From NCBI RefSeq assembly GCF_019880225.1, contig NZ_CP082284.1:1612001-1676000 (forward strand): 64,000 nucleotides of DNA. Direction: 5' to 3'. Source of the stretch: Halobaculum rubrum. Its GTDB lineage: Archaea; Halobacteriota; Halobacteria; Halobacteriales; Haloferacaceae. Made by a program: the position numbers and the translations under genes. A model generated the notes under the pieces. That model saw only the letters and a program-made list of their open reading frames with translations, made no database searches and had not been told where the DNA came from. Below, piece by piece: positions 7,944 through 43,103 of this stretch (positions are counted from its first letter, which is position 1; each line of letters starts with the position of its first letter).

Positions 7944-8002
7944 CTCGGGTTCCGATTCGCGGTCGCGTCCGGCGGTTCTCGACTCGGTGCCACTCGTTCT
8001 CC

Positions 8003-8189
8003 CACGCCTCGCTGTTTTCTGGGCGGCTCGGCCCTTCGGACCTCACCGCCGTTGGTCGAGGCGCTCGGTCGTTCGCTTCGCTCACTCCCTCACGCCTCGC
8101 TATTTTCTGGGCGGCTCGGCCCTTCGGACCTCACCGCCGTTGGTCGAGGCGCTCGGTCGTTCGCTTCGCTCACTCCCTCACGCCTCGCT
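8003..8189. repeat. 88-base perfect-looking tandem duplication plus an 11-base third start
   Basis: The unit beginning CACGCCTCGCT runs 8003-8090 and again 8091-8178; the first 11 bases occur a third time at 8179-8189. The two long copies differ at one visible base (G or A after the opening 11-mer). Each copy contains the GC-rich alternating motif GTTCGCTTCGCTCAC that is common in haloarchaeal spacers. The array fills the gap between the PAN gene and the arginine decarboxylase gene. No open frame is kept across it, since 88 is not a multiple of three. Confidence 0.9.
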
Positions 8190-8227
8190 ATCGACACCCA
8201 CTTTCGCCCCGACGCCCCACCGCCGAT

Positions 8228-8710
8228 ATGGATATCCACGTCGCCGACGGCGTCGGCCGGGGGCCGACCGAGCTGGCCGCCTACGACGCCGCGCTCGCCG
8301 ACGCCGGCGTCGGCGACTTCAACCTCGTCACCGTCTCGTCGGTCGTTCCCGCCGACGCGACCGTCCGCGCCGTCGACACTGTCCCGGACCTCGGCCCCGC
8401 GGGCGACCGGCTTACAGTCGTGCAGGCGCACGCGGCCGCCTCGCCCGAGGACGCCCACGCGACCGACACGGTCACGGCCTGTCTCGGATGGACGACCGGT
8501 CCCGGTCCGGGGCTGTTCTACGAGGCCGACGGGAGCGACGCCGACGCGGTCCGCGAGACGGTGTCGACCGGCCTCGACGCCGGCCGCGATCTGCGCGACT
8601 GGACCTTCGAGCGCGAGGAGACGCGCTGCGCGACCGTCGAGACCGACGACTCGGCGTACGTCGCCGCGGTCGTCGTCGCCGCCTACGGCGAGAGCGAACC
8701 GATCGCGTGA
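8228..8710 (+). CDS. pdaD: Pyruvoyl-dependent arginine decarboxylase, 160 aa
   Basis: Converts arginine to agmatine. In archaea agmatine feeds polyamine synthesis and the agmatidine modification of tRNA-Ile. The proenzyme cleaves itself at a serine to make the pyruvoyl cofactor; the cleavage site is in NLVTVSSVVPADA (Ser-Ser at about residues 37-38). Other family marks are TACLGWTTGPGPGLF (about 83-97) and the C-terminal YVAAVVVAAYG. Length fits the family (150-165). The ATG at 8228 is the only start that gives the usual short N-terminus. Confidence 0.9.
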   Translation: MDIHVADGVGRGPTELAAYDAALADAGVGDFNLVTVSSVVPADATVRAVDTVPDLGPAGDRLTVVQAHAAASPEDAHATDTVTACLGWTTGPGPGLFYEADGSDADAVRETVSTGLDAGRDLRDWTFEREETRCATVETDDSAYVAAVVVAAYGESEPIA

Positions 8711-8805
8711 GCCGTCGGCCCCGGTTTCGGGGTCTCGATACTGTATTCAGCCGACAGGTCGCCGACGCCTTTTTACGCGGACCACCCATATCATCGCCGA
8801 CCCTA

Positions 8806-9186
8806 ATGAACGGCAACAACCCCTATGCGGGGGCGCCTGGCGTCGTCGAGGCGGGCCGTCCCGAGGAGGTCGACCTCACGGCCGACCAGAAGGACGCGCT
8901 CCGACAGGCGGTCGCCACCATCGTCACGCGCACCGAGTCGTATCTCCCCGACGGCTACGCCGTCGGCTCCGAACTCTCCTACGGCACGAACGGACCGCAG
9001 GCCACCGTCGCGGTCCAGCCGCCGATAGGCCACGCCGTCAGCGCGGGCTTCTCGCCGGACCTCGACGAGATCGAGGCCGGCCTCGACGACGAGGACCGCG
9101 AGGAGGTCGCCCGCGGCCTCGCCGCCAGCGCGGCCGCCCAGGTCATGTCCGCCGTCGGCGACGATCTCGAACCGACCGCGCGATAG
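8806..9186 (+). CDS. Conserved haloarchaeal protein, DUF5811-like, 126 aa
   Basis: Begins MNGNNPYAGAPGVV and contains TVAVQPPIGHAVSAGF (about residues 66-81) and EVARGLAASAAAQVM (about 100-114). From memory these match the haloarchaeal family DUF5811, which has no known function. No signal peptide, membrane segment or catalytic motif is visible; it should be a small acidic cytoplasmic protein. A TATA-like box (CTTTTTACG, about 8768-8777) precedes the ATG by about 30 bases, supporting this start over upstream in-frame codons. Confidence 0.75.
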   Translation: MNGNNPYAGAPGVVEAGRPEEVDLTADQKDALRQAVATIVTRTESYLPDGYAVGSELSYGTNGPQATVAVQPPIGHAVSAGFSPDLDEIEAGLDDEDREEVARGLAASAAAQVMSAVGDDLEPTAR

Positions 9187-42532: not shown

Positions 42533-42605
42533 GGGCCGGTGGGGTAGCTTGGTATCCTTCGGCCTTCGGGTGGCCGTAACCACGATTCAAATTCGTGCCG
42601 GCCCA
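42533..42605 (+). tRNA. tRNA-Pro, anticodon CGG
   Basis: The cloverleaf can be built by hand. Acceptor GGGCCGG pairs with CCGGCCC (7 of 7), discriminator base A. The anticodon stem CGGCC/GGCCG encloses the loop TTCGGGT, anticodon CGG (reads CCG). The variable stretch is TAAC; T stem CACGA/TCGTG encloses TTCAAAT. The D arm is GGGTAGCTTGGTATCC. No CCA is encoded, as usual for haloarchaea. The DNA after the discriminator (CTTCTCCCGC) begins a repeated region. Confidence 0.95.
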
Positions 42606-42788
42606 CTTCTCCCGCAATCCGACTCTGTCGCGACGGCCTTCGGGTGGCCGTAACCACGTTCCCGTGAGCGAAGCGAACGAGAGCCAGCGAGACGAGCGGA
42701 GCGAGTCTCGCGTGATTCAAATTCGTGCCGGCCCACTTCTCCCGCAATCCGACTCTGTCGCGACGGCCTTCGGGTGGCCGTACTCACG
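42584..42788. repeat. Partial duplications of the 3' half of tRNA-Pro
   Basis: A 69-base direct repeat lies at 42584-42652 and 42714-42782 (period 130). It begins in the T stem, includes the full T-loop, acceptor 3' strand and discriminator, 28 bases of trailer and then a copy of the anticodon arm. Anticodon-arm copies occur at 42560 (in the tRNA), 42634 and 42764; the last one differs after the arm (TACTCACG instead of TAACCACG). The spacer between units carries a GC-rich segment (GAGCGAAGCGAACGAGAG...). Neither extra copy can fold into a tRNA, since the 5' half is absent. Confidence 0.9.
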
Positions 42789-43103
42789 TCCGCGTGGGCG
42801 TCGACGCCGACGCCGAGTCGACCCCATATCTTATCGGGGTACGTATCACAACGATCGATCGTGGTACTACCGGGTCCCGATATCTCCGAGGGGACGTCGT
42901 ATTTCCGTCGGGACCGTGGAACCCCGACCGGTACTCCCGAACACGGAAACGGCCGCGAGATCGCTTTGAACGCCGACTCCGGGGAGACGAATGGGTAACG
43001 ACTTCGGGGACCGTCCGCGCGACAGCCGGACCGCCAGTACCTCTCAGTTCCTCCGCGCCGGCTTGCCGACGGATGTCACCCAGCATACCAGGAGTCGGTC
43101 GAC

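Follow-up and report, generated by a model that had tools for sequence, protein, structure and literature searches.

A haloarchaeal tRNA-Pro gene is followed by probable stacked scars of elements with an IntSNJ2-related tyrosine integrase

Results

The locus behind tRNA-Pro(CGG)

The window, that is, the whole stretch of 64,000 nucleotides analysed here, is part of a haloarchaeal chromosome (genome G000, 3.06 Mb). Its only tRNA gene found by ARAGORN is an intact tRNA-Pro(CGG) gene on the plus strand (42533-42605), which has the same sequence in most relatives and is followed, on the same strand, by one 130-bp unit and a truncated second unit. Read 5' to 3', the gene is succeeded by a 28-nt trailer that forms the left end of unit 1 (42606-42633, CTTCTCCCGCAATCCGACTCTGTCGCGA), a copy of the anticodon arm with the start of the T-stem (42634-42658, a 100% copy of 42560-42584), a 56-nt insert between T-stem and T-loop that holds two hairpins (42659-42714; hairpins at 42660-42682 and 42687-42711), and a copy of the T-half, meaning the T-loop and the 3' strand of the acceptor (42716-42735; the original lies at 42586-42605). 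An exact repeat of the trailer then opens unit 2 (42736-42763), and it is followed by another anticodon-arm copy (42764-42788) and the decayed start of a hairpin arm (42789-42804), about where the repeat ends; the T-half of unit 2 is lost. A tRNA-Pro with two broken copies of its 3' half had been described here by the first-pass annotation, and both ARAGORN and repeat analysis bear this out. The 69-base block that it placed at a period of 130 is the perfect core of an 87-nt repeat (42584-42670 and 42714-42800, 94% identity, start to start exactly 130), and the third anticodon arm that it reported standing alone is likewise real: the 25-nt arm starts at 42560, 42634 and 42764, the last copy is 92% identical to the first, and only the decayed arm start comes after it.

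Rfam scans of the units gave no family at or above the gathering score, and the tRNA-Pro(CGG) gene at 42533-42605 had no match to RF00005 at all, though ARAGORN detects it clearly and it is conserved among haloarchaea. The T-arm of this tRNA carries A53-U61 in place of the near-universal G53-C61, which is present as G-C in some relatives (L030, L104 and L273).

The same arrangement in relatives

A 126-nt query composed of the tRNA and the first repeat recovered the same layout in several genera and families, in matches of 82-90% identity that spanned the query wholly or for the most part. When named genomes were scanned by pattern, 16 loci showed the junction between anticodon side and insert; one is unrelated, and the genera represented include Halorussus, Natrinema, Halolamina, Halorhabdus, Halobellus, Natronorubrum, Halovenus, Halorientalis, Natrialba and Natronococcus. 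In most loci with an adjacent tRNA-Pro, the distance from the tRNA start to the GTAACC of the copy is 115-118 nt, across families. The number of units is not fixed among relatives, being 0, 1 or 2, and even within the window's own genus it ranges from none up to the window's two. In one genome (G223) two complete 131-bp units stand in tandem and are identical at 130 of 131 positions.

The 56-nt arm of the window is identical at 49 of 56 positions to an arm adjacent to an integrase gene in Halorussus marinus, which belongs to another family. Likeness between arms crosses families: the Halolamina arm is 93% identical to that of Halovenus and 57% identical to that of the window. The hairpin stems covary, with 17 double-change cells against 4.8 after shuffling (0/500), and 97% of the cells of the first hairpin are paired; the arm is retained as a fold.

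Integrase-bearing elements that end in the repeated block

The first-pass annotation had suggested a search for an integrase and for elements ending in the repeated block, and this search succeeded in relatives, where an integrase gene abuts the block. In genome G040 a copy of the tRNA-Pro 3' end lies 19.6 kb downstream of the gene, and the gene abutting it (L094:18611-19912) encodes a tyrosine integrase with PF02899 and PF00589 domains (SAM-like N-terminal and Phage_integrase), in which the R, HxxR and Y residues are present within the motifs GMRMGAAR, HSIRHG and EERYDH. This integrase, which occurs in related elements and not in the window, shows 42% identity to the SNJ2 integrase over 84% of the query and 36-42% to members of the IntSNJ2 family. 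The right end of the G040 element, arm included, recurs at 88% identity over about 1.35 kb in Halorussus marinus, Halorussus halobius and Halorhabdus salina. The same 20-kb element (L094) encodes SIR2-like and PLD-like proteins, which are possibly defence cargo.

Among 146 genomes of the order, 115 have relatives of this integrase. A T-half located 5' of the integrase gene, pointing away from it, was found in 14 of 30 integrase loci, most of which have hairpins between gene and core, and in six tRNA-Pro elements (L209-L214) the integrase adjoins GTAACCGCG, the hairpins and the T-half. We delimited 12 elements of this family that carry an integrase gene; they span 2.6 to about 45 kb, and each runs from a tRNA gene to a duplicate of that gene's 3' end: six at tRNA-Pro (G040, 19.6 kb; G099, 27.5 kb; G080, 32.3 kb; G093, 24.2 kb; G051, about 37 kb; G165, about 45 kb), two at tRNA-Tyr (G056, 4.75 kb; G129, 2.6 kb), one at tRNA-Ile (G086, 2.8 kb) and three at tRNA-Arg (G063, 19.0 kb; G156, 5.1 kb; G146, 9.2 kb). 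That every attR carries a hairpin was considered and rejected, since a 4.8-kb tRNA-Pro element in G006 shows a 26-bp repeat without an arm.

The closest counterpart of the window module is that of G227, where the integrase gene starts about 45 bp from an anticodon arm, hairpin arm and T-half that are about 94% identical to those of the window. Here the tRNA-Pro gene and the attR module are 354 kb apart on opposite strands (G227:C1:109250 and 463076), so the element has been rearranged, probably by an inversion that broke within it after integration; a contiguous element to the left of the module was not found within 118 kb. There is no integrase near the unit in the window. The window's own genome has three integrases of the family, and a T-half was not found in the flanking sequence examined around these three with a limited core library. 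A search of IMG/VR with the arm patterns gave no match, so these exact patterns are absent from the collected viral contigs; nothing was found in phage DNA, and plasmids gave only arm-hairpin fragments.

Since the hairpin arm adjoins the integrase in relatives, the GC-rich insertion first noted within the T-stem belongs to the element itself, as its att arm. The proposed likeness of this insertion to spacer repeats elsewhere in the window holds for the motif GAGCGNAGCGA, which has four sites in the window against 0.73 expected, two of them outside the locus (8073 and 8161), and does not extend beyond that motif. A tandem repeat of about 85 bp on the minus strand at about 8000-8210 (AGCGAGGCGTGAGGGAGTGAGCGAAGCGAACGACCGAGCGCCTCG...CCGCCCAGAAAA) contains the window's two other GAGCGAAGCGA sites.

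Copies behind other tRNA genes

A copy of a tRNA gene's own 3' end was present, beyond chance expectation, within 600 bp downstream in 62 of 162 tRNA contexts, a set in which the Pro part is enriched, some of its loci having been retrieved with a module pattern, and upstream in 0 of 162; as a control, the 3' ends of other tRNAs lay downstream in 3 of 764. For the Val, Gly and Leu loci of relatives, which were retrieved through the tRNA sequence only, the figures were 37 of 86 downstream and 0 of 86 upstream. In the window's own genome the 3' 22 nt recur at most 600 bp downstream in 9 of the 30 tRNA genes inspected (Gly-CCC, Val-TAC, Lys-TTT, Lys-CTT, Ser-GGA, Ser-CGA, Phe, Arg-CCT and Arg-CCG), and Leu-CAA and Pro-CGG are further tRNAs with downstream copies. 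The gene-less units measure 49-264 bp. A hairpin arm stands in front of most copies, and at other tRNAs it often opens with the reverse complement of the T-loop; the best complementarity to the T-loop within arms averages 8.9 of 12, compared with 7.1 for shuffled sequence and 7.5 for the ends of other tRNAs. Nearly all remnants are tiny and gene-less, and none of about 0.4-2.6 kb was seen in the stretches examined. Compact gene-less units are the usual remnant.

The largest array seen, behind tRNA-Ser(CGA) of G129 (L241, about 8400-9092, minus strand), has four copies at +132, +268, +404 and +520. The tRNA-Val arrays (L070, L122, L124 and L125) consist of two unit types whose order differs between congeners, being alpha-beta in G000 and G007 and beta-alpha in G006.

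Stacking and decay

In G099 and G056 a gene-less unit lies directly behind the attR of a full element, which is the layout of a window-type stack whose newest member is still complete. At the tRNA-Tyr locus of G056 the integrase-adjacent arm and the gene-less arm are identical at 63 of 66 positions, and the unit has a 14-nt left-end stretch in common with the neighbouring full element, as would an internal deletion derivative of that element. The left ends of the Pro units match no left end of the known full elements. Decay has a direction: in 20 arrays with at least two copies the proximal copy was the better preserved in 11, the two were equal in 9 and the distal was better in 0, or 7 to 0 once four arrays that rest on weak distal matches (14/19) are left out.

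Discussion

The first-pass annotation had raised the idea that the copies might be stacked attachment scars, and our results support it, since elements ending in this sequence exist and copy number varies. We consider it very probable that the window units are stacked scars of elements that carry an IntSNJ2-related tyrosine integrase and integrate at the 3' end of the tRNA. The 3' part of the tRNA is repeated downstream in direct orientation, and the sequence that precedes the repeat comes from the end of an element, the arm being that found beside integrase genes. Under this reading the source elements would encode a tyrosine integrase related to IntSNJ2 and carry, just 5' of its gene, an attP made up of the anticodon side with the T-stem start, the hairpin arm and the T-loop/acceptor core. 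Recombination in the core would rebuild the tRNA with the element's core and displace the old 3' end as attR, with the element's arm still before it, so that the T-half copy at 42716-42735 would be an older attR and the T-half within the gene the att core. The next integration would target the intact tRNA again, and newer units would therefore adjoin the tRNA while older ones would lie further out and be more decayed.

We infer that the two units of the window came from such elements, whose gene-bearing interior has since gone, either because the interior was lost by collapse or because a gene-less unit was moved or amplified as such. More generally, a gene-less unit may be a scar left by collapse on the spot, a product of amplification by recombination, or a miniature element mobilised in trans; the near-constant spacing of 115-118 nt across families argues against random collapse, which would not give such spacing. 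A tentative extension, which we regard as possible but rather doubtful, is that the gene-less units of about 80-260 bp are miniature integrative elements, minimal attP circles of left end, hairpin arm and tRNA core on which resident integrases act in trans. They would then form a MITE-like class specialised for tRNA genes, building arrays behind many haloarchaeal tRNAs and possibly recombining as folded hairpins.

Local tandem duplication with gene conversion of the tRNA 3' end and its downstream hairpins would need no integrase, and it would fit the near-identity of units within a genome (94% in the window, 130/131 in G223) and the way in which copies track the local tRNA sequence. The second window unit may well have been added by tandem amplification. 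As an account of the units as a whole, however, duplication is unlikely: the same arm and core adjoin integrase genes in other families, full elements are found between tRNA and copy, and arms are sometimes more alike across than within families, as the Halolamina comparisons reveal. It is less probable still that the hairpins and T-half copies form a functional RNA, transcribed with the tRNA and processed to tRNA-derived fragments or affecting 3' processing. The covarying stems and the near-constant position of the units relative to the tRNA would suit such a role, but the units occur in a minority of species, even within one genus, they have no Rfam match, and the structured arm belongs to the ends of mobile elements, where recognition by a recombinase can explain the constraint. 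An intron in the T-arm of the tRNA was dropped as an explanation, the copies having no 5' half and being located at integrase ends.

The integrase places the presumed source elements close to a known group. Archaeal integrases have been reviewed (PMC8371274), and the elements of the IntSNJ2 family (SNJ2, HHPV4, HRPV-9, Halfgib1, Harhisp1 and Humcor2) have a related tyrosine integrase and an attB at the tRNA 3' end, as here; Humcor2 and Halfvol1 are also integrated at tRNA-Pro (PMC7911831). In SNJ2-like viruses the attP is short, 13-15 bp, and lies immediately downstream of the integrase gene (PMC7911831), whereas in our integrase loci with a core the attR lies 5' of the gene and consists of a 20-26-bp core with a hairpin arm. 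Because of this 5'-side att, longer core and arm, we call the source elements a related branch and not SNJ2-type proper. SNJ2 also has the annotated accessory recombination proteins Orf2 and Orf3.

Fragments of tRNA genes left by integration are known (PMC9897764), as are partial tRNA-Thr and tRNA-His copies in Haloquadratum (PMC3119063). Like the units described here, these are partial 3' copies downstream of an intact gene, but they singly bound kb-sized islands, whereas our units are gene-less, 49-264 bp long, possess a conserved arm and stand in tandem stacks behind many tRNAs. No description of compact arm-bearing units or of their arrays was found in the open-access literature, a scope outside which most subscription papers lie.

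Two further systems invite comparison. CIMEs and accretion arrays are attL/attR-bounded stretches of DNA without their own integrase, stacked at one tRNA, gene-carrying and kb-sized; our units are stacked in the same way, also without an integrase of their own, but carry no genes. Integron attC arrays are tandem units with imperfect palindromes of variable length, in which cassettes carry ORFs and an integrase is associated with attI. The units resemble them in their imperfect palindromes, their tandem order and the differing order between relatives in the tRNA-Val arrays, and differ in that they have no cassette ORFs and that their core is host tRNA sequence; an attC array was rejected as an identity for them, units of 49-264 bp being too short for cassette genes.

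Integration scars at tRNA genes are well known, but the remnant found here is compact, structured and gene-less, and it recurs behind many tRNAs in different haloarchaeal families. The units offer a record of earlier integrations that can be read in order, account for many of the odd fragments of tRNA and hairpins found behind haloarchaeal tRNA genes, and yield a prediction of the att site used by a widespread integrase family. Movement in trans, if it occurs, would make them analogues of MITEs that depend on an integrase.

Two-hairpin repeats resembling the Pro arm (GAAGTTCTCGTGAGCG..CGAACGAGAGCACG plus a second hairpin) also occur away from tRNAs, in intergenic regions of the window's own genome (L034-L037), where some of them sit inside an outer stem.
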